A stretch of DNA of 21,293 bases from assembly GCA_900128565.1 (NCBI GenBank), contig LT636029.1:1-21293 (forward strand). The letters run 5' to 3'. Shown one piece after another: positions 4,095 to 21,293 of the stretch (positions are counted from its first letter, which is position 1; every line of letters begins with the position of its first letter). The position numbers were made by a program, and so were the translations under genes. This stretch comes from Stramenopiles sp. TOSAG23-6. Taxonomy: Eukaryota; Sar. The notes under the pieces were generated by a model. It was not told where the DNA came from and searched no databases. It saw nothing but the letters and a program-made list of their open reading frames with translations.

Positions 4095-4120
4095 TTACCA
4101 ATTATTAAGGTCAGTATCGA
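4051..4120. repeat. 35-bp exact tandem duplication spanning the QueH-like stop codon
   Basis: Positions 4051-4085 and 4086-4120 are identical (each begins CAGAAAATATTACCAATTAT). The second copy contains the stop codon and last codons of the QueH-like gene; the first lies in its 3' UTR. The duplication leaves the protein end unchanged. Confidence 0.9.
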
Positions 4121-5364
4121 CCACATGTTTTTTTCTACGTGAATACAATTTCTTCAACCGGTCATCATCAAATTGTCTTTTTGCATCTCGAAAGAAATGA
4201 TCTACGACTTCTTGACTCTCTTCTGCTGCATCCTTTTGAGGATCCTCAAAATAACGTGTACCAAGTCCAGCCGTTTCACCACCAATTTTTACTGGAGGAA
4301 TTCCCTGCGATTTTCTCCAGAGATTTGAATCGCGAAGAGAATACGAACATCCACAAGTATTGTAAAAAAATATTTCAAAAAATTGTAACTTGTTAGGTAC
4401 TTACGTCCTGTACCTAGGAAATTTTCTATCAAAAAAACAGAAGATAAAATTAAAATTTGAAATTAAAGTGGATAACATACAATACTCTTGCTTATAAAAA
4501 CTTTGTTTTGCCGAAATTTCGTATTTTCGGAGAGTCATTTATTTCGTGTCAATATGTCAAAAAAAAAAAATCTGTTAGGTACAAAATTTCGTATTAAAAA
4601 AAAAAAAATGTATGAAAAAAAAACATACATTTCATCTGTTTGCTAATTGTAGATCCAATACTGAATGTTTGGATATCGTGCAGCTGCACGAAGACCACTA
4701 TCATTTACTTGGCGCACATCTTTCCAACGAGATGTTGCGTTTGTTGTAGTAAAACACGGAAAATCATGTATTGTGAGAAGAAAAAAAAACAATTGTTAGG
4801 TACGAAATTTTCTATGAAAAAAAAATATTTGAAATCATCATGAAAACATACATGAGCTTTGGCATATGCTGCTGTGACCTCCATTCTCATATCAAAGCAA
4901 GCAGTACAACGAACCCCTCGCTCAGGATCATATTCTAACCCTTTCATTCGTTTAAACCAGGATTTGGCATCATAGTCTGCGTCCACAAAATCCACACCGT
5001 GCTGCTTCGCATATCGTTTGTTTTCCTCTTTTCGAATTTCATATTCTTTTCTCGGATGGATATTTGGATTATAAAAGAAGATTGTAACATCAAGACCCTT
5101 TTCTAACATTTCTTCAAACATTGCACCAGAACAAGGTGCACAACATGAATGTAAAAGTACCCTTTTCGCGCCATTTGGTGGCATTGCATTCATCTGTGGA
5201 GTACAATCAATAGAGTATGGTGCGGATTCTGCTGGGTTATTTCGACAGCCCTTGTGACTGCAACTGGGAGCAGCAGACGCTCCATTATCGTAGCACAGAG
5301 CAATTGGGGCGCGTGCCAAGTGCCTATCAGATGGCATGTCGGCTGCAACATGTTTCAGATCCAT
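4095..5364 (-). CDS. queH: QueH-like epoxyqueuosine reductase, four exons, with an in-frame TAG
   Basis: Exons on the minus strand: 5364-4852, 4765-4629, 4536-4481, 4354-4095; joined they give one frame of 322 codons. Motifs in order: HSCCAPCSG (Cys 74, 75, 78), [28 protein letters not shown] (Cys 153, 156), then after intron 1 [12 protein letters not shown], and after intron 2 FYKQEYC joined by intron 3 to GCSYSLRD. These are the Fe-S/metal-binding cysteines and family blocks of QueH, which reduces epoxyqueuosine to queuosine in tRNA. The last about 60 residues extend past the bacterial form. Codon 212 (4643-4645) is TAG at a place where relatives carry Trp (YWxYNW), so the gene is interrupted, recoded or affected by a base error. 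All three introns are non-canonical. Queuosine salvage in eukaryotes usually does not need this enzyme, so bacterial ancestry is likely. Confidence 0.82.
4355..4480 (-). other. Non-canonical intron 3 of QueH-like gene
   Basis: 126 nt. Exon TATT|GTATGTTATC to ACAATACTT|GTGG. The frame and the EYC-GC motif fix it. The flanking dinucleotide is TT on both sides, unlike the usual AT. It has a TACCTAAC branch-like site and the GAAATATTTTTT tract. Confidence 0.85.
4537..4628 (-). other. Non-canonical intron 2 of QueH-like gene
   Basis: 92 nt. Exon GAAAT|GTATGTTTTT to CACGAAATAAAT|GACTC. Dinucleotide AT on both sides. The 3' end reads AATAA-AT rather than AATAC-AT. The core ACGAAATTTTGTACCTAAC is present. 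Confidence 0.8.
4766..4851 (-). other. Non-canonical intron 1 of QueH-like gene
   Basis: 86 nt. Exon GCTCAT|GTATGTTTTC to CACAATACAT|GATTTTCC; splicing joins ...AAYAKAH to DFPCFTTTN, as expected for QueH. AT on both sides. Contains GTACCTAAC. Confidence 0.88.
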
Positions 5365-5597
5365 TCAGTGATTGATATTCATTGTTGCGAAAAAAAAACT
5401 ACCTATATAATCTACTAGACTATACGAAAGATTAGTATAATCGCAAAATCGCGCGTGATTGATAAGTATTTTTTTTTGCAGCAGCTGACTCGATGTTTTA
5501 TGATGCTGTCATAAAATGCTACTCTACGCACACGCCCGTTCGAGTTAGCACCCACAGTGGAACACACAGTTAGTTCATAATTCTATTACTGACTAAA
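5365..5597. promoter_or_regulatory. Divergent promoter region of QueH-like and hydroxylase genes
   Basis: 233 bp between two start codons pointing away from each other. A TATATAA-like stretch at about 5403-5410 is a possible TATA element. There is a T-run followed by GCAGCAGCTGACTC near 5470. No coding potential is seen. Confidence 0.4.
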
Positions 5598-6788
5598 ATG
5601 TCTGGAGGCGCTACATTCACACCTCGCATATACCCGCGACCAACTCCTCTTTCTTCTTTTAAGGTCTACTCGAGGGCAACGTTGAGACATATTCGCGGTC
5701 CTTTATTAGCTGTTGGCGTGACGTTTGCAACTAGGCCTTTATACAATCAACTTTCTAACTGTTTTCATTCGGATCGTTTGTTTTTTTCATTTTCAACCAC
5801 GCTAGTCCATTTTTTTGTCTACTTGACGGTCAATACTTTTTTCTATTTGTTAGACCGCAATTGTTGGTTACTGCATTACAAGTTAGATCGCAAGAGGGCT
5901 CAGTTACCCTCAACAGCCTTGATGAGAAGTACCTTAATTGAGGCTATAGTAAGTCAACTAGTCCTTGGACCACTACTTTTATATTGTATATTCCCTGTAT
6001 TCAAATATTTTGGACAACCTGGAAGAGATCAACCTCTTCCAAGCATTATGGAACTAATGCGAATGTATGTTCTCTGTGTATTTTCCAATGACTGGGGTTT
6101 TTACTGGAGTCATAGAACTTTCCACTGTAAAGCTATTTATAAGTTTTTTCATAAAACGCACCATAAGTATCTTGGTACTGTAAGTTTTGCCGCTGAATAT
6201 GCACATCCATTGGAACAATTGTTTGCAAATCATTTACCTACTGCAATGGCTTGTTTGTGTTTTGGGTTTCCAATTCATGTACGTTTTCATCAATCATTTC
6301 AAATTTGTTTTTTTTCGTAAAAAAATTCTTGTACAACAAATTTCATGTATCAATTTTGTTTTTCAATTTTATTTTTGGACCAAATTCTGTACCTAACGAA
6401 TTTCGAATTGGACACTTCCCTCAAAAATACATGTGTGGTTAGTATGGCTTGCATGGAGGCTTGAAGAAACGTATGAAGCACATTCAGGATATGTATGTTT
6501 TATTTTTTTTTTTACAAAAAATTCGAATTTATTTTTCGTACGAAATTTTGTACCTAACAATTTTTAGTTTTTTTTTTGAAATATTTTTACAAAATACATG
6601 CTTTTCATGGCTCTATATTGCATCGATTAGGTTTGACAAATAGTGAGGCTGCAATTCACCACGACTATCATCACACTGCGAATAGAGGAAACTTTGGAGC
6701 TTTGTATCTTGATCATTATTTTGGAACTATGGATGGTTTTTTATCTCTTGGAGGAGAAGAAGAATATATCAAGAAAAAGAGTACATAA
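5598..6788 (+). CDS. Fatty acid hydroxylase/sterol desaturase superfamily membrane di-iron enzyme, three exons
   Basis: Exons 5598-6278, 6433-6492 and 6600-6788 join to a 309-residue protein. Exon 1 has several hydrophobic segments (about residues 35-55, 65-85, 115-135, 155-170), then the first two histidine clusters: HRTFH (172-176) and HKTHH (185-189). Exon 2 gives VWLVWLAWRLEETYEAHSGY (228-247), and exon 3 supplies the last cluster HHDYHH (267-272). The eight or so His ligands of the di-iron site are therefore complete only when both non-canonical introns are removed. The family includes C4-sterol methyl oxidases, C5-sterol desaturases and lipid hydroxylases; the HSGY and NFG...DHYFGTMD blocks resemble the methylsterol oxidase branch, but the substrate cannot be fixed. 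ER membrane location is inferred. Confidence 0.9.
6279..6432 (+). other. Non-canonical intron 1 of hydroxylase gene
   Basis: 154 nt, the longest of the set. Exon CAATTCAT|GTACGTTTTC to AAAAATACAT|GTGTGG. CATGT occurs at both borders. It seems to hold a decayed first core (around 6318-6340) and a second with TGTACCTAACGAA. Confidence 0.9.
6493..6599 (+). other. Non-canonical intron 2 of hydroxylase gene
   Basis: 107 nt. Exon GGATAT|GTATGTTTTA to CAAAATACAT|GCTTTTC. AT on both sides. Positions 6525-6560 are identical to 8259-8294 in the JmjC gene intron, and the similarity continues to the 3' end. Confidence 0.92.
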
Positions 6789-6995
6789 AAAAAATAAAAT
6801 TGAAATGAAATTGACAATTGTACTATTTTTTTTATCAAACACGAAATATCGGTCAGATATTCAGCGAAGAAGTCTTTTTTTTACCTATCTATCTATGGAA
6901 ATTCTAAATAGAATCCTATTATACTACGTACTGTCTATACTCTCTCAACTCTTGATCACGTTACGGTACGCCGTAAACCAATCGAATACTCTACA

Positions 6996-8476
6996 ATGTC
7001 ATGCTCAAAGACTTCAAAGTTGCTTACTGAAGCCTATCGCAAAGTTGGTGCTTTTATGCCTACAACCTTAAGGCAAGTTCCTTTAGTAAAAACGTGGTCA
7101 AGTCAACTTTGTTTTGAGTCTCTCAAATCAATCTTGGGTGAAGACAAAACACTTACAATAAAAAGTTCTGAAAATCGAGAGTTTATGTATAGCGAACGCG
7201 GCACGTCTGATAGACTTCTTGATAGTGGTGTTGGTAGCTCTACTGAAATAGTTGACATGCAAGTAGCAGACTTTTTTTCAGCTTTACGAGGTCAAGATGG
7301 AGAAACTCCGAAGTTCCATTACTTTACTTCAATGCTTGATGACTTGGCTCCAAGGTTAAGTGAGACACACACTCCTGGATGGGAAAATTTTGTAGTTGAC
7401 CATGACCCGTTAATTAAATTGCACCCAATGAGTGCACCATCATACCCAAGTATTTGGATGGGTGGTAATGGGTCAACTACCCAAGCTCACTATGATGTAT
7501 CAAACAATATATTAACTCAAATATTTGGCAAGAAACGATTTCGACTTTGGGGACCTGATGCTCACCTTTCACTTCGAGTATTTCCTGATGCTCATCCTCG
7601 AGCAAGAAAAGCTCAGCGTATTATACCAAATAAATATGATGGGTATAGGAGCAGACGTAACTCTTCTGAAAGGTATGAACTTCCTTTACCGCCACCTGTG
7701 TTGGATGTTGTACTTGAACCTGGTGACTGCATTCTCATACCCGCATTTTGGTTTCATCATGTAGAAGCTTTAGAAGAATCGATATCTGTCAATATTTTTT
7801 CGGAAAGTAAGATGAAGTTAGCTGCCTTGGAAATATTATCAAAGTCTCTACCTTCTCCTCTGCTTCGATGTGTCGAAGACAAATCAAATATAAATGAAAT
7901 ATCGAATGTATTTTCACTGTTAGCTAATGATCTAGCATCTGCCATAACATTAAATAATAAGATATATAAACGGGAGAAATGTAGTTTCTTGGATTGTATG
8001 GTACATTCTAGATATGATTTTGCGTCGGAAAGATTTGTAATGAATACAATGACTACAAGTAATGTAGTGAATAATCCAAATATAATAGCAAATGTCAAAG
8101 AAAACACGAAACAATTTCTGCCTCTATTTAATGATTTAGTAAAATCAGTTGAAAAAATATACACCAGCAATGCTATTGATCCTACAGGATCGAATGAAAA
8201 TGTTTTATTAGATGGTAAAATTGTCGATGAAAAGTATCTTTTATTTTTTTTCAATTTTGAATTTATTTTTCGTACGAAATTTTGTACCTAACAAAATTTT
8301 TTAGATTTTTTTTGAAATATTTTCCAAAATACAAGTATCCTTTAGGATTGAAAGAAATTATATTTGGTCATTTACTAGAGATGTGGGCTGTTCGCTGTAG
8401 TCATCTTTCAAAGAATAAAACGTTTACCACAAGTTCTCTTCTGCAAATGGCTGCTGAAGTAAGTAGAACACCATAA
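6996..8476 (+). CDS. JmjC/cupin-like Fe(II) and 2-oxoglutarate-dependent oxygenase, two exons
   Basis: Exons 6996-8233 and 8335-8476 give 459 residues. The cupin-like (JMJD5/FIH/TYW5-type) core spans about residues 120-270: SIWMGGNGSTTQAHYD holds the HxD iron ligands (H165, D167), GKKRFRLW carries the likely 2-oxoglutarate lysine (K180), and EPGDCILIPAFWFHHVEAL supplies the distal His (H255). The C-terminal region from about 280 is helical-looking with no recognised domain. The intron falls in it (DEK joined to YPLGLKEI). Members of this group hydroxylate proteins or tRNA bases; the substrate here is unknown. It lies about 210 bp after the hydroxylase gene on the same strand. The start is the first ATG of the frame. 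Confidence 0.85.
8234..8334 (+). other. Non-canonical intron of JmjC gene
   Basis: 101 nt. Exon GATGAAAA|GTATCTTTTA to CAAAATACAA|GTATCC. The duplicated dinucleotide is AA, and AAGTATC is present at both borders. The interior is almost the same as intron 2 of the hydroxylase gene. Exact borders within the repeat cannot be read from DNA, and protein homology is weak here, but only removal of this length keeps the frame into a long downstream exon. Confidence 0.8.
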
Positions 8477-8772
8477 CTTTACAAGATATATAAAACCTTT
8501 ACAATTGAGACATATTTTTAATTTAGTTTTGGAATGAATGCTATTTTTATTCTAATATACCGACTCGTTTCTGTTTTGTATTTTTAATTTCGCATTGCCA
8601 CCATTTGTATGACGATATACCACATGTTGTATAATCAAAAATTTGAAATTTCATCACGCGTGTCACGAAATCCGTAAAACTTTTGAAAAGAGAAACGTTC
8701 ATATCAAGGGCATAAGCCATAAGGTACGTAATCTCGCAAAGTGGTACAAAGTATTACCAGTAAGCTACCAGT
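8477..8772. promoter_or_regulatory. Intergenic region before the ABC transporter gene
   Basis: 296 bp between same-strand genes, AT-rich at first and richer in GC after about 8650. A small open frame at 8643-8825 overlaps the transporter start in another frame and resembles nothing known. The transporter promoter should lie here. Confidence 0.3.
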
Positions 8773-11700
8773 ATGACATGGAAACTGTCGTTCGCCAATG
8801 CTCCGGAGATTACACCAAAGCGTAAAGAAGATTTGCCTCACTCAATATCGGATGAGTGGTGCGCAAATTGGTTTAGTCGGGTATTTTTCTACTGGGTTAC
8901 GCCACTGGTTCACTTAGGAGCACACAGAGCACTTCGTGATGGTGATTTGGGTGAACTTGCACCAGGTTATCGTGTGTTCCGACGCTTAGACGACTTGAAA
9001 AAAAATCTTTGTGTGTACGACGCAGATGTTGTTCGCGCTACTTTACAAACATATCGTCGACAAATGCTTTATGGTGGTATTTGTAAACTCTTCGGTGACG
9101 CTTTACAGTTTGTTACACCTTTAGCACTAAAGATTGTTCTACAATATGCTCAGCAGCACCGTAATGAACCAAATGTTCCAGAAGAAGAATGGTTTGGGCT
9201 TCCAAAGGAGTTTTTTGCCTCAATTGCACTGTTCATTGCACCAGCTTTGACTGGGCTTCTCTATCATTGGTATTATCAATGGGTTATGTACGATATCAAA
9301 ATTGAATTTCAAATTTATTGTTTTGTAGAAAATTTTGTACTCAAACGATTTAAAAAAATATATATTTTTTTCACAACACATGTGGGCTGGACTGTATGTT
9401 CGAACAAGTTTACAGGCATTAGTATATCGGAAGTTACTGTCTATTCCATATAGCGCAATTGGTAGTACTAATTCAAAACAAAAAAACGATAAGAAAAATT
9501 CTGAAAAAGCAAAAAATAAAGAAACGAAAGAAAAGAACACTGATGATTCTAAAAAGTCTGAAAAAGCAAAACCAAAATCCGTCCTAGCTGGACATATTGC
9601 GAATCTTCAAAGTCAGGACACTGTTGCTGTTGAGGGGGCATTATGGATGATTCATTATTTATGTATGTTTCGTGATGATTTTTCCTATTTTTCTTGGTAG
9701 ACATTTTTGTACCCTAACAAAAAAAATCGAATTTTTGAAATATTTTTTCATCATCTATGGGCCGCTCCTCTATCAGTTGTTGTTTGTCTTGTTTTGTTGT
9801 ATATAGAACTTGGTCTTGCAATGATTGCAGGAGTTAGTATTTTAGTTATATTAATACCTATTCAAAAAATAATTGCAGGATATATTGCTACTATAGCAAA
9901 AACAACTTTAAAATGTTCTGATGAGAGACTTGAAACAGTTACTGAATGTTTGTTTTCAATTTCAAAATTTGATTTTTTTTTTCGTACGTAATTTTGTACC
10001 TAACGATTTTTTTAAACTTTAAAAAAAAATCACAATACATGCATTCGGGGTGTGAGAATAGTTAAAACATTTTGTCTGGAGGAAATAATGCGTAATCGTG
10101 TGAAAAAAGCAAGAAAGAAAGAATTGCGTAGTTTATGGTACGCAGGACTATTAAGAGAGGGCAATGTTGCATTAATGCTTTCAGGTCCTTTACTATGTGC
10201 TTTGTCAAGTTTTGCATTATTTGTTTTGATTTCAGATGACGAGCTCACTGCCTCTAAAGCTTTTGTATCACTTGTATTATTTAACATGTTGAGAATGCCT
10301 TTAATTCTAATACCAATGTCAGTTGGTATGGTCGTTCGAGGTTATGTGTCTGCAAAACGAATTACTGAATTTCTCCGACTTGATAATATTCAAGGATACA
10401 TACAAAAAAATAATCATGGAGTTAATGCAGTTGTTGTAAATAATGCAACATTTTCATTCAGTGAAATGAATGATAAAAAAAGCGATACTCGTATCGATCC
10501 AAAAGCACACACGACGAGGCGTACTAATGACGATGAACAAGAATATTCTCCAGTAGTTGATAATATTGATAGCATGATCGAAATGAACGATGTTAATACT
10601 AAAAACACTAACCCTAATGAAGGTTTCTATTTGAGAGATGTAAATATAAGTATTCAAAAAGGAAATTTGTGTTTTGTTGTAGGAAAATTTGGGTCAGGTA
10701 AGACTGCATTTCTTCACTCGTTACTTGGAGAAATGCATCTTGTTCATGGTTCCGTTTCTGTTGGTGGAACAACAGCTTTTGTGGGACAAAGTCCCTGGAT
10801 ATATAATGCTACTGTAAAAGAAAATATAATTTTTGGGACTCATAAAAGTTTGTCTGATCATTCAATGCAACATCAAGACAATATTGGATTGGATAAAGAG
10901 AGATACTCTGAATGTTTACAATGCTGTTGTCTACTTCACGATTTAGAAACCCTTCCAAATGGTGATGAAACCGAGATAGGCGAACGAGGTGTAAACATTA
11001 GTGGAGGTCAAAGAGCTAGAGTGGCTCTTGCACGAGCCATATATTCTAATCCGGATGTACTATTTCTTGATGATGTTCTTTCAGCAGTTGATGTTGATGT
11101 ATGCCGACACTTAGTTGAAGAATGTATTGTTCCAATGATTAAACAAGGTAAAACTGTAGTAATAGCGACACATTCAATAAATTGGCTTAAGATTGCTGAT
11201 CAAGTTATAGTTGTTAATGAGGGTGCAATTGAGTTCAATGGAAGCGCAGCTGATTGTATCAAAAGTAATGCGCTTATCAATATAAAATCTGAAAAAAATG
11301 AAATATCTGAAACATCTAATACATTTGAAAACGATGATAGTGTACCAAACGAAAAAGTGAGCGTTACAAAAGTCAAACTTGACTCTGAAAAAGTTGAAGA
11401 AGAAAAGTCATCGAAGAGTCAGAAATCTCAAGATGGAAGATTGACCAAAACCGAGACAATGCAAGAAGGCTCAGTGAAGTCTCAAGTACTTCAAAAGTAT
11501 ATATCGTATGCTGGAGTATTCTTAACAATAGTTGTTTTATCTTCGGTAATTTTGCAGAATGCTTCAGCATTATTCTCAGATTGGGTACTCTCTCGCTGGG
11601 CAGAAGATCGAGGATCTAGATCTCCTACAACTAAAAAACCAGAACATTCTCATAATTATTGGTTGGGGATGTATGCCCTAACTGCCTTGGGTACACTGAT

Positions 11701-13584
11701 ATCAATTTGTGTTTTTAGGGTTTGTGGTTTGTATGCGGGCCTTGGAGCAGCGAAGAAACTTCACAGTAATATGCTTCATGCATTATTAGGAGCACCATTG
11801 AGATATTTTCATGTATATGACCCTTTTGTTACTTTCATTTTATTTTTACTATGAAAATTTTGTACCTAACGATTTTGGCTTTTAATTTTTTCACAATACA
11901 TGTGACTCCTGTAGGGCAAATGATAAATCGTTTTGGAAGCGATACTCGTAAAGTTGATAATGATATATTTACGTCGATAATGGGTATGTTGACAATACTT
12001 GTTAGTATAATATGTGTATTAGTACTTCAAATACTTTTATTATGGTGGTTGATTGCTTCGGTAATACCTCTGTTTTTTGTATACGCGTACTTTGCAAAAA
12101 TATATCGTAGTTGTTCACGTGAACTAAAGCGGCTTGAAAGTGTGGCTCTTTCACCTGTGTTTAATGCATTCGAGGAAGCACTTGCTTCGGGTGGTCTACA
12201 AACAATTCGTTCATTTGGTGTACAGAGGAGATTTATGGATCAAATGGCCGACAGAATTGATAACCATTCACGTGCATGGACAAAAAATAACTTTGTGAAT
12301 CGTTGGATGGGCACAAGACTTGATTGGATTGGGGCATTTCTTGTTGGAGGTGTTGCTTTTGGAAGTGTTATGTTTATATATCATGATTCAACTAATGGTG
12401 GTGTAGCAACTTTAGATACAGGAATGATTGGTCTATTAATAGTAGCAACGTCGCAAGTGAGTAGCTCTTTAAATTGGGGAGTGAGACGAGTTTCTGAGAT
12501 GGAGTCGAATCTTGTTTCAGTTGAAAGAATTTTAGAAGTGTGTGAAGTAGATCAAGAAGTAATTACTCGATGTAGTGTAGACGATGTTTCAACAGATTCA
12601 AAGATAGTAATACCATCGGCTATTGTAGGGTGTATTGAAATGAAGGACGTAAAGATGAGATACCGCGAAAACCTCCCTCTAGTTCTGAAAGGTATTAATT
12701 TTATAATTCCAGCTGCTTCGTCAGTTGGTGTTGTTGGCAGAACAGGCAGTGGCAAATCTTCTTTAATTAATGTCCTTGTACGTCATGAATTTTAAATTTC
12801 TTCTTTTTTTTACTGTGAAAACTTTTTTATCTCATGAATTTTGTACCTTAAAAAGTTTTTCCACAGTACATCTTCGATTGGTTGAGCCCAGTGATGGAAT
12901 TATATCCATTGATGGTATTGATTGTAGTAAAATTGATCTTAATGTCTTGCGAACTATCATCACTGCTGTACCTCAAGAAGCTGTTATGTTCTCTGGATCT
13001 TTGAGAGAAAATGTACGTTTTAATTTTTTTTTTCGTATGAATTTTCCTACCTAAAAATTTTTTTTGGAATATTTTTTCATTATTGATTTGATGATTCATT
13101 TCAATTTGTTTTTTAAATTTCATACCTAACGATTTTTTTTTGATATTTTTGCACAATACATATTGATCCAGGAAATGAATTTGACGATGCGCAATGTCTT
13201 GAGGCTTTAGCAGCTGTAGAATTACAAGATTTTGTTCAAACTCTCTCAGAAGGTCTTTCGACAAATGTTTCTGCATTAAGTGCTGGTCAACGCCAATTAA
13301 TTTGTTTTGCTCGGGCTTTAGTTCGCAGACCTAAAGTTTTGTTGATGGACGAAGCGACGTCTCATATTGATCATAAAACTGATTCAAAGATTCAAAGTTG
13401 GATAAGTCAGAGAACTGGTTTGTTGAACAATACTACTATCTTTATTATAGCACATAGAATAAATACGGTAATGGATTGCGATCATATCATTGTAATGGAT
13501 GATGGAAAAATTATTGAATTTGGAAATCCAAAAGAACTTTTATCAAATGGTGGAGCTTTTAAAACTCTCCTTTATAATTCATAA
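8773..13584 (+). CDS. ABCC (MRP)-type full-length ABC transporter, seven exons
   Basis: Exons 8773-9287, 9382-9662, 9759-9947, 10041-11812, 11902-12777, 12872-13012 and 13162-13584 form one 1398-residue frame. There is no TMD0: it opens with the ABCC entry block (EEWCANWF-like, SRVFFYWVTPLV). Order: TMD1; NBD1 with Walker A GKFGSGKT (about 543), Q-loop QSPWIYNATVKENI, signature ISGGQ (about 648) and Walker B VLFLDD, where Asp replaces the catalytic Glu as in many ABCC NBD1s; a charged linker; TMD2; NBD2 with Walker A GRTGSGKS (about 1198), signature LSAGQ, Walker B VLLMDEA and H-loop IAHR. It likely exports organic anions or conjugates. TMD1 carries a Lys-rich insert (about residues 200-235). 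All six introns are non-canonical. AATAAA overlaps the stop (13583-13588). Confidence 0.94.
9288..9381 (+). other. Non-canonical intron 1 of ABCC gene
   Basis: 94 nt. Exon GGGTTAT|GTACGATATC to CACAACACAT|GTGGGC; joins YYQWV to MWAGLYVRTS. AT on both sides, ATGT shared. The branch-like site is altered (TACTCAAACG) and the end is AACAC. Confidence 0.88.
9663..9758 (+). other. Non-canonical intron 2 of ABCC gene
   Basis: 96 nt. Exon ATTTAT|GTATGTTTCG to TCATCATCTAT|GGGCC; joins MIHYL to WAAPLSVV. AT on both sides (TATG shared). The 3' end departs from AATAC. It has TACCCTAAC. Confidence 0.85.
9948..10040 (+). other. Non-canonical intron 3 of ABCC gene
   Basis: 93 nt. Exon CTGAAT|GTTTGTTTTC to CACAATACAT|GCATTCGG; joins ETVTEC to IRGVRIVK, a conserved ABCC segment. 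AT on both sides. Core GTACGTAATTTTGTACCTAAC. Confidence 0.92.
11813..11901 (+). other. Non-canonical intron 4 of ABCC gene
   Basis: 89 nt. Exon TTTTCAT|GTATATGACC to CACAATACAT|GTGACTCC; joins LRYFHV to TPVGQMINRF, the conserved TMD2 entry. CATGT at both borders. AAAATTTTGTACCTAACGA core. Confidence 0.92.
12778..12871 (+). other. Non-canonical intron 5 of ABCC gene
   Basis: 94 nt. Exon GTCCTT|GTACGTCATG to CACAGTACAT|CTTCGATT; joins SSLINVL to LRLVEPSDG just after Walker A. The flanking dinucleotides differ (TT against AT), the only mismatch of the set. A CAG lies five bases upstream of the 3' border, but using it would break the frame. Confidence 0.85.
13013..13161 (+). other. Non-canonical intron 6 of ABCC gene, with two cores
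   Basis: 149 nt. Exon GAAAAT|GTACGTTTTA to CACAATACAT|ATTGATCC; joins GSLREN to IDPGNEF. Only AT is shared, so the repeat here is exactly two bases. Two core copies are visible (about 13033-13078 with TACCTAAAAA, and 13119-13159 with TACCTAACGA). Confidence 0.92.
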
Positions 13585-15973: not shown

Positions 15974-16129
15974 ATAACTTGTTCTATTTGTTTAATAAAA
16001 GTCTATGGCATATTTGCAGTATAGTATCCTTCTTTCCTTCAGAGATGACATGTATGTGTACTAATGAGTGTACCTCTCCCTCTTTTGTGCTTGCAGTTAC
16101 ATTTTGATTCGAATTGAATTGAATGAATT

Positions 16130-16488
16130 AAGGTAGTCGGGTACGTTTTTCGTGATTTCGGTCATTTCTGAGACAATAGATGCTTCAAAATGACAAAAAT
16201 AATTAATTTTATGACAAAAGCCCACGACAAAAGTTTTGAAATAGTGTCAAGTTCATTATTACCATGCTTAGGTACCAATGAGATAATTTTTCTAGTAGCC
16301 CCATTAAAATGATCTTGTGTGACTCCATTTTTCTGGAATTTGCTGATTTCAGAGGTGATTTTAATGGGGCTACTAGACAAATTATCTCATTGGGTGCTAA
16401 GCAAGATAATAATGAACTTGACACTATTTCAAAACTTTTGTCGTGGGCTTTTGTCATAAAATTAATTATTTTTGTCATTTTGAAGCAT
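16130..16488 (-). mobile_element. Foldback (MITE-like) element, copy B, inverted relative to copy A
   Basis: 16180-16488 is the exact reverse complement of 1-309, and 16130-16179 matches 310-361 inverted with one visible mismatch (GTCATTTCTG against GTCACTTCTG). Similarity stops after GACTACCTTAA. Both copies have the same inner arrangement, so they are two insertions or one unit moved by rearrangement. No coding function. Confidence 0.8.
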
Positions 16489-16732: not shown

Positions 16733-17111
16733 TACAACACCTATAAATCATCCATTTCCATCAAAACTGCAAAGTCATCTGTATATCTTTCTTCTAATGC
16801 TGCATCACATGTTGACTCTTGTTCTGTAGAAGCCACACTGCTATAGACATCTAGCCATTGGAAAAAAAAATGTCATTATTTCATTAATGAAATAATGTAC
16901 ATTTTGAACTTACACGACAGCAATTGGCGCAATTGGCGATACTATTCAATGAGGACGATCTAGATCTGGTGAAGGTGTTTTCAAAATTGATCGAGCTGAT
17001 GGTTTTACGTTACAACACCTGTAAATCATCCATTTCCATCAAAACTGCAAAGTCATCTGTATATTTTTCTTCTAATGCTGCATCACATGTTGACTCTTGT
17101 TCTGTAGAAGC
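16733..17111. repeat. 101-bp direct repeat: duplicated end of the exonuclease coding region
   Basis: 16733-16833 and 17011-17111 are nearly identical (both start TACAACACCT and end CTGTAGAAGC). The second copy encodes the last residues of the exonuclease frame; the first is an untranslated or alternative-end copy 278 bp downstream of it on the minus strand. Confidence 0.88.
16874..16897. repeat. Perfect 24-bp palindrome
   Basis: CATTATTTCATT is followed directly by its reverse complement AATGAAATAATG, with no spacer. It lies between the two copies of the 101-bp repeat. Confidence 0.9.
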
Positions 17112-17996
17112 AGCAGCCCGTAAATTATCACCAAGAGGGTCGTTTTCTGCAAATATTTCTTTCTTCATGTCTGCTTCCCAAATATGACGGTCAGTCAACC
17201 ATTTACGGTGCGTTATCCATTCCTCCAACGTCATGACAAAACGATGATTCTTCTCCTTGATTGCTACAATACCCACCTTGGATTTGAGGATTTCAAATAC
17301 TGCTCTTACATCTCCTTCGGCTCTATGGGGTGTTACACCAAAAGCTTCCATCGTCTTGTTCATTGTTTTCTGGAAAATAGCCCCCAGTTTCTTTGACTTT
17401 GATCCAAATACATTGTGCAACCGCATCACATCGATTGTACCAGATATACCCCATTCAGCTATTTTTCTGCTCCAAAGGACACCACGACACTTTCGCCGGC
17501 ACGTGTTCTCCATCATATTCATATCAAACGTATCACTATTTGATCCTGCGAGATAAATCTTTTCCTTGTTTGCTGTGACACAAAACTTATTTATAATATC
17601 ACCAACCTCAGTAAGCATTGTTTCAAATGATTTACCATCTCGTTTGATCATTGCTTCTGATATTTTATGAATATCCTCAGCACCATATTTAGTATCATTT
17701 ATCAAAGCTGAATATGTTGTTATTTCAATAAGAGAGAATTTGCGTTCTGTCTCGCGTTTGAGTTGACTAATGTGAAGAGATATTTCCACTGGCTCTTCTT
17801 TACTTGAATTCAGTCCGGATGCCTCTAAATCCCAACAAATAATGAAGTCACCTACCTCAATAAAATCAGTAATCTCAGATCTACGTGATGCTGGTGGACC
17901 TTTCCTATTATAATGACCATCAACAATACAACTTGGAGCACGGTGACCTATACGTAAACAATTACCACAGCGCGTTTTCACTTCTTTTGGTTTTGA
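17010..17996 (-). CDS. CCHC zinc knuckle plus DEDDh (DnaQ-like) exonuclease, C-terminal part of the transposase frame
   Basis: This stretch has no suitable ATG before its domains and lies in exactly the same frame as the transposase, separated only by TAA at 18012-18014 in a poly-A tract. It starts with a basic linker (KSKPKEVKTR), then a zinc knuckle CGNCLRIGHRAPSC (CX2CX4HX4C). The exonuclease fold follows: DxE in IICWDLEASGL, the second Asp in SNSDTFDMN, and the third motif HRAEGDVRA (His four residues before Asp), which defines the DEDDh class of 3'-5' exonucleases. It ends at TAA 17010-17012. I infer that it is the C-terminal part of one long transposon protein, perhaps acting on transposon ends; a separate protein is less likely. 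Confidence 0.75.
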   Translation of the reverse strand, partial: SKPKEVKTRCGNCLRIGHRAPSCIVDGHYNRKGPPASRRSEITDFIEVGDFIICWDLEASGLNSSKEEPVEISLHISQLKRETERKFSLIEITTYSALINDTKYGAEDIHKISEAMIKRDGKSFETMLTEVGDIINKFCVTANKEKIYLAGSNSDTFDMNMMENTCRRKCRGVLWSRKIAEWGISGTIDVMRLHNVFGSKSKKLGAIFQKTMNKTMEAFGVTPHRAEGDVRAVFEILKSKVGIVAIKEKNHRFVMTLEEWITHRKWLTDRHIWEADMKKEIFAENDPLGDNLRAAASTEQESTCDAALEEKYTDDFAVLMEMDDLQVL

Positions 17997-18011
17997 TTTT
18001 TTTTTTTTTTT

Positions 18012-21007
18012 TTATTTTTTTTTTTTTTTTTTTTTCTCTCTATTTTGCTTATTATTACTGGGAACACGCAACACCACATCATCATCAATGACAATAGTAT
18101 TATCATTATCATCCGCATCAGCAAAACCACCTGGCAAGTATTGTGTGTGCTCTGTAGCCATCTGTTCAAAACTTTTCAACTGGCGTCTTACTCGGTTCTT
18201 CTTGCGTTCTACTTTAACTTTTGTTTTTTTATTGTATTTCTTCCGGCTTTCATTTATGATTTCTATTGCTTCCGCATGTTTCCATTGATCGTTGGTAATT
18301 TGTACCCCAGCTTGCTGTAGGCCATGCAATAATGATGAAAACCCACCAGCATTGCGCGAAACAGTCATTGCATTACGTAATGCATATACCAATGTACCAC
18401 AATATATCGAACGGTGTTTTGGTGTTTCATTGCTTACGGATGAGAAATTCAACGCTTCGTTCATTTGTGTATTAAACGGATGACAAGACATTTCAAGCTG
18501 CTTAATTGTTGAATTATCATCCCACGATTTATTGCCAACAGGCCAATCAGTCCACTTAATCGGTTTGTCATCTGCATCATATGTACCACCCTTTGCTTCA
18601 GCTGCAAGACCAAGACATCGACCTTCCATGAATTCAGCACAAGTTGAGTGATCACCCGCCAAATGACGTTTACCATTGTTGCATCGCCTCTGTATCTGCT
18701 GAACAGTATCACCATTTGAACCTCCAACACGCAAGCTCCAAACAAAATTCTTTCCAATACGGTGAATTACACGGCTACCTCCTGGAGGTGGCTTTGCCCA
18801 CATTGGATTTACCACTACCTTCTTCCGGTGCCCTGGATCGGCATTAAATCGCGGCACAGGCTTGTAATTTTCCATGTCACCCTTCTTTTCTTCACGGCGC
18901 AAACGTTTACGGGTAGCAGAATCATCATCTGTAGTTACACTCTTCCAATATGTATATACTTCATTTCCATCCGGGAGAGTAATTGGTTGTCTCATTGCTA
19001 GATTGTGTAGACGAGGTGCAGCTAAAGACTCCATGCCTTTTGCAGATGAATTTTCCATGTTCATGCGGCAGTCATGAGCACTAACTGGAATTCCACTTTT
19101 ACATGATAAACAATCTCTCTGTGTACATAAGTATCCAACAATATCCTTAGTGTTGCCATCAATAACACTTGTAAATCCTCCACGACTAGAATATGACTTC
19201 CCTGAGCCACGCTTTGTCCACCCTGTGTCAATTGTCACATTAATTCCAACCATGTAGTGTGTGTTTTCAGTATCAGCCCATGGAAAGTCTTCATCACATT
19301 CTAGATTGCTATCTAAAGAATCAAATCTTTTCGTCTCATTGGAATGAATATCCTGCACATGTTTTAGCTTTGCCTCTAGATCATTGCATAAATTGAAAGC
19401 ATTACGCAGTTGTTTTCTTTCTTTTTTGTCAGAACTTTGAACAAACATTTGAGACGCAAGAGTAATCACAGCAATTTTCAATTGTGTTTTTGCTTTGCCT
19501 AATGCATGCTTAACACAAATAACATCTGTTTTTGCAATTTCTTTTCGTGCACTATTATTCATTGGGATTTTTTTTTCACCTCTCTCTAGCGCTGCAATTA
19601 CTGAATTTCGACGTCCCTCATAGGTAAGCTTCAATGCAATAGTCTCTTGGTTGCGTCCATAATGTATGAAATGATTCCGCATTGTCTGTCTATAATTTAC
19701 TGATAACGGAATACCAAGAAGTGTTGCAACCCTAAAAAATAAAAATAACATTACAAAATTTATATAAATCAATAAATTAATGGTGAAAACAAAATAAATA
19801 AATTAATGGTGAAAACAAAATAAATAAATTAATGGTGAAAACAAAACAATAAAACATACCTTGGAGCATCCGACCCACCTTTCCCAAGGTATAGGAGTGC
19901 AGCAGCCATATTAATATTTATTGAATACCTACTGTTCCCGCGCGGGTAAGCATCAGGCTTACCACACTGCTCAAATTGTTTTGGTAGCCTGTGAGGTCCA
20001 AACTGTACTAACTGAGATGTTGAGAGGACTAGTTTGTGGGGTTTTGTCTCAACGGATGGTGAATTTCGTGTTGAATATTGCTTTGAGGAACAAACTCCAC
20101 TACATTGATACATTATGTTCGACGCAAACCCCATACGTGATTCTGAATGACCTCGTACCACCGGTATAGATGATTTTATTTCCTTTTTTTTTTTGGCATA
20201 ATATTTTTTAGCCAACATAACAAAATCTCTTGTGTCATCTTGAATAGAACTTGCNAATCCCAATAAAAATTTTTCGACCACAGCACCGACGCAGCATCTA
20301 CATGTTAGTCTTCCATAAATAAAACTATTAAGATTTTCCATGTTCATTAACCGGTTTCCATCTATTTTAGGCTGATGCTTTGCAGCATTAGTTGCTTCGG
20401 CATCATGACGCAGTTTCTTTCTTCTATTTTTTATGTAAATTTTCTTTACTTTTTTTTTACTAATCTGAGGTTTAGCATACGAATGAATTTTGTCCAAATT
20501 CCACGATAGGTCATTGGGACTTGCATTCACATGTGAAATGTGTTTGCCATTGCAACCACCTGTGCTGACTCGGCGTAGATAAAGAGGTGTTGAAGTATCT
20601 GATAAAGAACGTGAACGTGAAACAGCAGGTGTGTTACTACATCTACGGGTAAACTCCAAACGAACTTTTTGGATTGCAATTGGTAAATTGTCTGATTCTT
20701 CACTCACTCTTTCTATTGTTCCTGGCGATGCAAAAGGAGCAGCTTTTTTCAAAATGCTCTTGTTCACAGAAATCGAATTTGAGCGCAAACATGGAGGTCC
20801 CACATTAGATGTCAATGTATCTATATTATTTATTTGATCAGTTGTTGTCTTCAAGGGTTCACCGCGGGGACTTGAGTCTGCTTGGGTTTTCAAGCTTTTA
20901 TTACTTGTTGAGGCACTCTCCTTGGTGGACTTCTTCCTCTTCCCTTTATTACTCCATGTTTCTCTGGGTGCTTGATTACCTTTATTGTACTTTTGGAACT
21001 TACCCAT
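18012..21007 (-). CDS. Mutator-like transposase, two exons
   Basis: Exon 1 21007-19860 and exon 2 19731 downward, joined by a GT-AG intron (CCAAG|GTATG ... TTTTTTAG|GGTTGC) that keeps the frame. Exon 1: a disordered basic N-terminus, then GNRLMNMENLNSF and Cys pairs (CRCC, CSGVC), ending YSININMAAALLYLGKGGSDAP. Exon 2: VATLLGIPLSVNYRQTM, then the catalytic segment NVTIDTGWTKRGSGKSYSSR (likely catalytic Asp in IDTGW), a CLSC...SAHDC metal-like cluster, RRCNNGKRHLAGDHSTC, and NEALNFSSVSNETPK with the probable Glu. This is the block order of the Mutator-like transposase domain found in many animal and protist elements. The frame stops at TAA 18012-18014 inside poly-Lys coding A-runs; without it the protein would be about 1289 residues. 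One base is N (20255). Confidence 0.82.
19732..19859 (-). other. Canonical GT-AG intron in the transposase gene, with 3x26-bp repeats
   Basis: 128 nt, starts GTATGTTTTATTG and ends TTATTTTTTAG. Three 26-bp tandem units (AATAAATTAATGGTGAAAAC...) occupy 19771-19848. It lacks the TACCTAAC core and the duplicated dinucleotide ends of the host-gene introns. Confidence 0.85.
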
Positions 21008-21293
21008 TTCCTACTGTCACTGATCATGAGAGATTCGCCTTTCCTTGTTTGAGGAAATATGCGCAAGGGAAGGGAAGCGAATGTTCACTGGTTCGTCCCG
21101 ATTATGAACTGACTCTCTAAATCTTTGCGATTTCGTGTTCTACAATTCCCTCAGCAAAAAAAACATTTTTTTTTTTTTTTTTTTTGAGATCCTGTAAACC
21201 CAAACTGTAAAACCGACAATTTGTCGGTTTTACAGTTTGCTTTTAGGTTTATTAGCAAAATGGTACAAATATTTTTTTTTGGTTTTTTGGTTT
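21008..21293. promoter_or_regulatory. Upstream region of the transposon gene, with hairpin
   Basis: Sequence upstream of the transposase ATG, with a 20-plus T-run near 21164-21185 and a perfect palindrome 21201-21239. It should hold the transposase promoter and possibly the element end. No gene is seen. Confidence 0.4.
21201..21239. repeat. Perfect 19-bp inverted repeat with 1-nt centre
   Basis: CAAACTGTAAAACCGACAA is followed by a single T and its exact complement, TTGTCGGTTTTACAGTTTG. TAAACC/GGTTTA just outside adds a second, offset pairing. Likely part of a transposon end or a protein-binding palindrome. Confidence 0.9.

Follow-up and report, generated by a model that had tools for sequence, protein, structure and literature searches.

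Introner copies without a 3' AG, most likely spliced from GT to a duplicated target dinucleotide, in a stramenopile assembly

Background

The nonconventional introns of euglenids have no conserved borders, and a fold brings their ends together (PMC6221363). The introners of Amoebophrya carry inverted repeats of 8-20 nt and direct repeats of 3-5 nt (PMC7789003), an introner family of Chrysochromulina contributes a 5' site of its own and uses a 3' site supplied by the place of insertion (PMC9860276), and in the larvacean Fritillaria borealis recognition of non-canonical 3' ends falls to diverged U2AF paralogues (PMC13326754). As portrayed in the excerpts of these papers on which we draw here and below, they are the closest described counterparts of the introns found in a 21,293-nt window, which is the whole stretch of DNA analysed and forms contig C79 of a eukaryotic assembly (8,027,113 bases, 408 contigs). 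Twelve introns of this window are most likely introner copies with an AG-less 3' end, removed by the U2 spliceosome from a 5' GT to a terminal dinucleotide (NN). In the literature searched, supplements and most subscription papers aside, we found no report of such introns in marine stramenopiles (MAST).

Results

Twelve introns without a 3' AG

A first-pass annotation of the window had called twelve non-AG introns, and all were recovered in place, with coordinates, ends and NN pairs each reproduced. With the 5' cut at GT, their 3' ends read ACAT (eight), ACAA, ACTT, CTAT and AAAT (one each), and the NN before the GT equals the NN at the intron end in 11 of the 12 (AT nine times, AA and TT once each), the sole exception being ABCC intron 5 (TT/AT). 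CCTAA or CTAAC is present in ten.

Three of these introns lie in a QueH-like gene (4095-5364, minus strand; Pfam PF02677): intron 1 at 4766-4851 (86 nt, AT/AT, ending ACAT, with the branch-like GTACCTAAC at 4795-4803), intron 2 at 4537-4628 (92 nt, AT/AT, ending AAAT; GTACCTAAC at 4574-4582) and intron 3 at 4355-4480 (126 nt, TT/TT, ending ACTT; GTACCTAAC at 4392-4400), whose excision restores EYC-GC across the junction. The remaining genes are on the plus strand. The fatty-acid hydroxylase gene (5598-6788; PF04116) has intron 1 at 6279-6432 (154 nt; GTACCTAAC at 6389-6397) and intron 2 at 6493-6599 (107 nt; GTACCTAAC at 6550-6558), both AT/AT and ending ACAT, and the JmjC/Cupin_8 gene (6996-8476; PF13621) has one at 8234-8334 (101 nt, AA/AA, ending ACAA; GTACCTAAC at 8284-8292). 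The ABCC transporter gene (8773-13584, assigned by Pfam) contains six: intron 1 at 9288-9381 (94 nt, AT/AT, ending ACAT, devoid of CCTAA and CTAAC), intron 2 at 9663-9758 (96 nt, AT/AT, ending CTAT, with a CTAAC-like site near 9713; for its 3' end, the automatic border finder gave a wrong position), intron 3 at 9948-10040 (93 nt, AT/AT, ending ACAT; GTACCTAAC at 9996-10004), intron 4 at 11813-11901 (89 nt, AT/AT, ending ACAT; GTACCTAAC at 11862-11870), which joins FHV-TPVG, intron 5 at 12778-12871 (94 nt, TT/AT, again devoid of CCTAA and CTAAC) and intron 6 at 13013-13161 (149 nt, AT/AT, ending ACAT), which joins REN-IDPG and, with CCTAA at both 13050 and 13125, is perhaps two fused elements.

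Protein homology had been said to force these junctions, which held for the ABCC, hydroxylase and QueH-like genes, where excising GT...ACNN restores homology; the JmjC junction is set by reading frame only, because the domain match does not reach the intron, and the Pfam score is the same before and after splicing. The spliced ABCC protein runs for 1398 amino acids with zero stops; its junctions 1 to 4 are ungapped against ABCC2 (three alignments among 154 matches), junction 1 sitting in a weak aligned stretch of 16.3 bits, and junctions 5 and 6 are ungapped against both ABCC2 and MRP1 (two alignments among 95 matches). Both hydroxylase junctions are ungapped in all 12 homologues that reach them (13 aligned among 39 found); the homologue P0019 has a two-residue insertion three residues upstream of junction 1, and P0001 stops at intron 1. 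The hydroxylase scored 40.0 bits against Pfam (positions 2-73) before splicing and 60.9 bits (2-132) after it; for QueH the two scores were 131.2 bits (1-103) and 197.2 bits (1-174 of 175). A PDB search with the hydroxylase gave zero matches.

QueH exon 2 contains an in-frame TAG (4643-4645, minus strand), set to X for Pfam scoring, where homologues presumably have Trp. We attribute it to a pseudogene, an allele or an amplification error; its use as a sense codon is unlikely, as TAG ends 8 of 39 long frames.

One dispersed repeat family

When the pattern was sought genome-wide, as the annotation had proposed, it proved to belong to one repeat family, whose sampled copies are mostly in register. 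Across the two strands of the 8.03-Mb assembly, duplicated contigs included, there are 1549 exact copies of the 13-mer TTTTGTACCTAAC (reversed control, 0) and, counted likewise, 604 of ATTTTTCCAAAATAC, with AT next in 536. Such counts are inflated, because contig C2 is palindromic, being symmetrical about its middle, and C13 and C14 are near duplicates (judged by the places of the motif), as in amplified single-cell assemblies. In the family consensus, GTAYGTTTT leads into a T-rich body containing CGTACGAAATTTTGTACCTAAC, with TTTTYCAMAATAC and NN at the end; the element, laid out as GTAYGTTTT...TACCTAAC...TTTTYCAMAATAC, mostly measures about 85-125 bp and has a terminal inverted repeat of 4 nt (GTAY/RTAC). 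As in other introner families, many similar copies occupy intron positions. Among the places listed, the 3' motif falls within the first 100 bases of ten contigs, as expected where assemblers break at repeats. An exact 22-mer of the element had no match in IMG/VR and none in prokaryote genomes, and a search for empty sites by self-BLAST returned 12 spanning lines, all resembling self or repeat matches. Tandem or nested introners, two back to back, were seen in sampled stretches L002 (7483 and 7588), L018 (region of 5363) and L020 (region of 9467, minus strand).

Exact excision leaves most copies with an open frame

Individual copies were collected by a profile search (28 seeds; E up to 1) of 25 stretches and the window, together 261,060 bases. 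This yielded 184 matches, reduced to 152 non-overlapping, 147 placed and 143 distinct copies, of which the 109 with well-scored borders were used and the other 34 set aside. For the 108 copies with enough flank, we scored whether a 180-nt frame was open after excision of GT...ACNN. The frame was open in 93 after exact excision, compared with 31, 25, 30 and 25 when the excision was shifted by -2, -1, +1 and +2; the controls were open in 10 (unspliced) and 16 (antisense). By dinucleotide, 55 of 59 AT/AT copies were open, 13 of 17 with a 3' AT and another 5' NN, 7 of 11 with a 5' AT and another 3' NN, and 4 of 6 other mismatches. Copies with identical NN other than AT were open in 14 of 15 cases, against 2-3 when shifted, and therefore elements ending TT, GT, AA, TG and AG would be excised in the same register as those ending AT. 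Among copies with exactly one open frame per side, 28 of 34 are in register, falling in phases 0, 1 and 2 in 11, 6 and 11 cases.

The GT-AG rule, as the annotation had maintained, fails to explain these 3' ends, both by this test and by what a forced AG does to a protein. In the public TRAP1 model P0160, both introners are apparently spliced at AG, so that RPVMSAES becomes RPVIAES and VAEQ is lost; V[AT]EQ is kept in all four relatives aligned. Exact excision leaves TRAP1 ungapped at both introners against the relative P0161 (72% identity), itself a single predicted protein with no gap at either site.

The terminal dinucleotide is a target duplication

It had further been claimed that removal behaves as if it took out the inserted sequence and one of the two copies of a duplicated target, and this was borne out by the register test and by an NN match beyond chance: the two NN agree in 75 of the 109 copies, compared with a permuted mean of 52.3 and a maximum of 62 in 2000 permutations. 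A preference for AT would by itself give part of this match. Identical NN other than AT were counted in 15 of the 109 copies (2.29 expected) and in 7 of the 55 copies of a strict set (1.04 expected), neither value being reached in any of 20000 shuffles. As these pairs (TT, AA, GT, TG and AG are seen besides AT) are far above expectation and in register, NN is a 2-bp target duplication, specific to each locus as in introners. Identity of the two NN drops with divergence (31, 25 and 19 of 36, from the best-conserved third onwards), a trend to which weak borders contribute. In the strict set, 10 of the 19 copies with a 5' NN other than AT have a 3' AT and 7 match, and 7 of the 12 with another 3' NN match and 3 have a 5' AT, a pattern that fits drift of the exonic 5' copy and conservation of the 3' copy as a signal for splicing.

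Only mismatched copies can tell which NN is retained. At ABCC intron 5, keeping the 5' copy yields a Leu common to ABCC2 and MRP1 and keeping the 3' copy a His; in copy L021+5051, whose host gene we take to be ILVBL-like, the 3' copy would put a TGA inside NDACWTQI. Of the 34 mismatched copies, 23 have an open frame whichever NN is kept and 9 have none with either; one (L021+5051) favours the 5' copy and one (L021+4452) the opposite. The two well-placed cases favour retention of the 5' copy, and the intron would therefore run from GT to NN.

Splicing signals and canonical introns

GTAYGT is compatible with U1 pairing, and the GTAYG start of the element fits the U1-complementary 5' GT of U2-type introns; the 3' AG of that type is absent. 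The U2-type branch motif is likewise present, CCTAA being found in 96 of the 109 copies. Its A lies 32-48 nt from the intron end in 85 of the 96, and the full range of 19-72 nt rules out a fixed branch-to-end ruler. The copies fold weakly (z averages -0.68 and is below -2 in 10 of 77), and pairing of the ends is 0.246, compared with 0.224 when interiors were shuffled and ends kept (77 copies). Because of the GTAYGT site, the CTAAC branch motif and the weak fold, the simplest account is splicing by the U2 spliceosome at a 3' site that lacks AG. Prp8 is present as a 2021-codon open frame.

For contrast, a canonical GT-AG intron of 128 nt (19732-19859, minus strand) occurs in the Mutator-like transposase gene of the window (17010-21010, minus strand; Pfam), and others in genes named by eye as FKBP-like (L007+2397, with the CTAAC A 36 nt from the end), TBC-like (L022+7482) and eL28-like (L005+3092). 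Some introner bodies end in AG, namely L018-5048 (AG/AG) and L023-808 (...TATAG). The latter intron, at 808-971 on the minus strand of L023, interrupts the GGAMSLGHPLG motif encoded by a thiolase-like gene and has two introner-like branch motifs before its TATAG end; it is perhaps an introner turned canonical.

A diverged U2AF65-like protein

A U2AF family search gave 9 matches at 6 loci. The best U2AF65-like candidate is a 654-codon single open frame on contig C376 (stretch L037), with an RS region, two RRMs and a UHM. Both RRMs resemble human U2AF65 RRM1 (52.8 and 69.3 bits; against RRM2, none and 32.7). The protein scores 188.7 bits against the U2AF large subunit profile (cut-off 310.3) and 49.5 against SF-CC1, and every one of its 16 matches in the PDB is to U2AF65. 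Two further loci, on C47 and C239, resemble other RRM proteins by eye. We hypothesise that this protein, with two RRM1-like domains and without RRM2, is a possible cause of the AG-less 3' sites.

Host placement and other features

The host belongs to the species represented by EukProt set GSMAST32.ASY1, a MAST stramenopile. Over 1125 columns, Prp8 shows 19 mismatches and 6 gap openings against GSMAST32.ASY1.ANO1, and TRAP1 P0160, from the same set, aligns with gaps but agrees in almost every aligned column. The MAST placement follows from the name of that set, which may denote MAST-3, and from many of the next named matches, which comprise oomycetes and further stramenopiles alongside algae and plants. 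An 18S search with a typed fragment, run without a control, gave zero matches. According to an excerpt of PMC5778133, in which "splic" is absent and "intron" occurs twice, MAST-3A lacks a full-length dynein heavy chain gene. Identity with MAST-3A is unlikely here, as there are seven dynein loci, six with frames above 4000 codons.

These dynein heavy chain frames of more than 4000 codons without a stop (C96, C155, C6, C7, C11 and C87) mean that very long genes can be free of introners in this genome; a dynein-domain gap on C87, considered as an intron, proved to be open protein. The window also carries a 365-bp inverted repeat (1-365 and 16124-16488, 99.45% identical), each copy of which is palindromic over about 310 bp, with zero further copies in the loci examined.

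Discussion

The layout of the copies shows a non-autonomous transposon-like element that inserted mostly at AT and duplicated two target bases. Judging from frame and homology, coding sequence would be restored only if the RNA lost the element together with one target copy. Such removal would most likely be carried out by the U2 spliceosome, using GTAYGT, a CTAAC branch and a T-rich tail as in a canonical intron of the same genome, and the 3' cut would fall two bases past TTTTYCAMAATAC, mostly after ACAT and without AG. The 3' signal of the introner is perhaps read by a rebuilt U2AF large subunit, as one gene suggests. More tentatively, and as a possibility rather than a probability, a transposon may have rewritten the 3' splice code, in that a U2AF65 with two RRM1-like domains would direct the cut two bases past TTTTYCAMAATAC whatever the dinucleotide; AG would then no longer be the working signal for most introns, and an AG end would arise when the target was AG.

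Other explanations share part of this evidence. Excision independent of the spliceosome, of the kind discussed for euglenid nonconventional introns and Amoebophrya introners, in which a GTAY/RTAC helix or the NN repeats would join the ends, could draw on the 4-nt terminal inverted repeat, on the NN repeats of 75 of the 109 copies and on an end helix whose probability exceeds 0.5 in 14 of 77. It is nevertheless unlikely, since copies with unequal NN stay open (13 of 17 with a 3' AT and another 5' NN), folding is weak (z -0.68), and the 5' site and branch motif are conserved like spliceosomal signals. We consider it quite improbable that the unit is instead shifted, NNGTAY...AC being excised and the 3' copy kept. 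Identical NN would give the same product, A...C ends are a known pair in AT-AC-like introns, and L021+4452 agrees with this; however, ABCC intron 5 and L021+5051, the only two good discriminating cases, favour the 5' copy, and the family consensus (GTAYGTTTT and TACCTAAC) differs from that of U12-type introns, which have RTATCCTT at the 5' site and TCCTTAAC at the branch.

Ordinary GT-AG introns with misplaced borders would agree with the introner-bodied introns that do end in AG (L023-808, L018-5048). With the register test strongly opposed and an AG-forced TRAP1 model that drops residues kept by its relatives, there is very little to be said for this. Elimination from a somatic genome at the DNA level, as for internal eliminated sequences, would match the precise excision and the 2-bp repeat, but is barely credible: sampled copies lie in coding sense (93 of 108 open in sense against 16 in antisense), the record of P0001 (a 1720-bp contig) apparently retains hydroxylase intron 1, its tail following the intron reading, and the host is a stramenopile. 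Moreover, ciliate-type eliminated sequences have TA direct repeats, and the identical NN here are AT, TT, AA, GT, TG and AG.

Several points weigh against U2 splicing of AG-less introners as set out above. The searches made returned no transcript of the species, and every putative junction has been placed from frame and homology. In the register test, 15 of the 108 copies are not open, some of them owing to neighbouring introns in the flank or to misplaced borders, and 8 of the 17 copies with a 3' AT and another 5' NN are open also at shifts -1 and +2. A loose ab initio scan separated the AG-less class only modestly (100 of 272, against 71-82 at shifts), and the same scan for GT-AG introns gave zero excess (21 of 134, against 21-23), so that the canonical class rests on few genes and looks rare in the sample. 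Borders are doubtful in some of the 15 non-AT identical pairs (L025+4247, L008+728 and L002-5386), and L021+4452, poorly bounded and in tandem, requires the 3' copy, or its second base, for an open frame. The sample is non-random, L020-L025 having been picked with dense matches in view and C2 being palindromic, and the assembly is partial, with duplicated contigs. U1, U2 and U2AF35 were not found in searches without a positive control, and a U2AF65 of the ordinary kind may be present in sequence missing from the assembly or at the weak loci C380, C43 and C328.

The 3' AG is among the most constant of eukaryotic signals, and an AG-less lineage that keeps GT and the branch would separate the 3' side of the code from the rest; this one, far from larvaceans and syndinians, would offer a natural U2AF65 variant for testing. 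Should every target dinucleotide serve, nearly all positions in a gene would be open to the element at little cost, which bears on intron gain. As the AG-forced public model loses residues, gene sets of uncultured plankton may be damaged.

The annotation had likened these introns to the repeat-bounded classes of euglenids and Amoebophrya, a likeness that stands in part. With euglenid introns they share non-AG ends and a suspected origin from miniature inverted-repeat transposable elements (PMC6221363), but borders and branch motif are strongly conserved here and the fold is weak, so that the features defining the euglenid class are not seen. Amoebophrya is nearer, with repeated non-canonical introns and direct repeats over the borders (PMC7789003), yet the repeats differ, being here a 4-nt inverted and a 2-nt direct repeat, conservation is strong at the 5' site, at the branch and in the 3' motif, and the host is no syndinian. 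The introners of diverse eukaryotes are likewise dispersed intron-making elements with target duplications, but use GY/AG sites, in contrast to the variable, mostly AT, 3' dinucleotide found here (PMC9860276). Fritillaria borealis resembles our host in pairing a U2 spliceosome with masses of non-GT/AG introns, whose 3' ends include AC and AT (PMC13326754). Its U2AF subunits are duplicated and diverged, compared with one diverged U2AF65-like gene, carrying two RRM1-like domains in place of RRM1-RRM2, in the partial genome of this unrelated lineage, where the 5' GTAYGT is kept, one repeat family dominates and a 2-bp duplication forms the 3' dinucleotide. Overall, within the accounts available to us, Amoebophrya and Fritillaria come nearer to these introns than the euglenids do.

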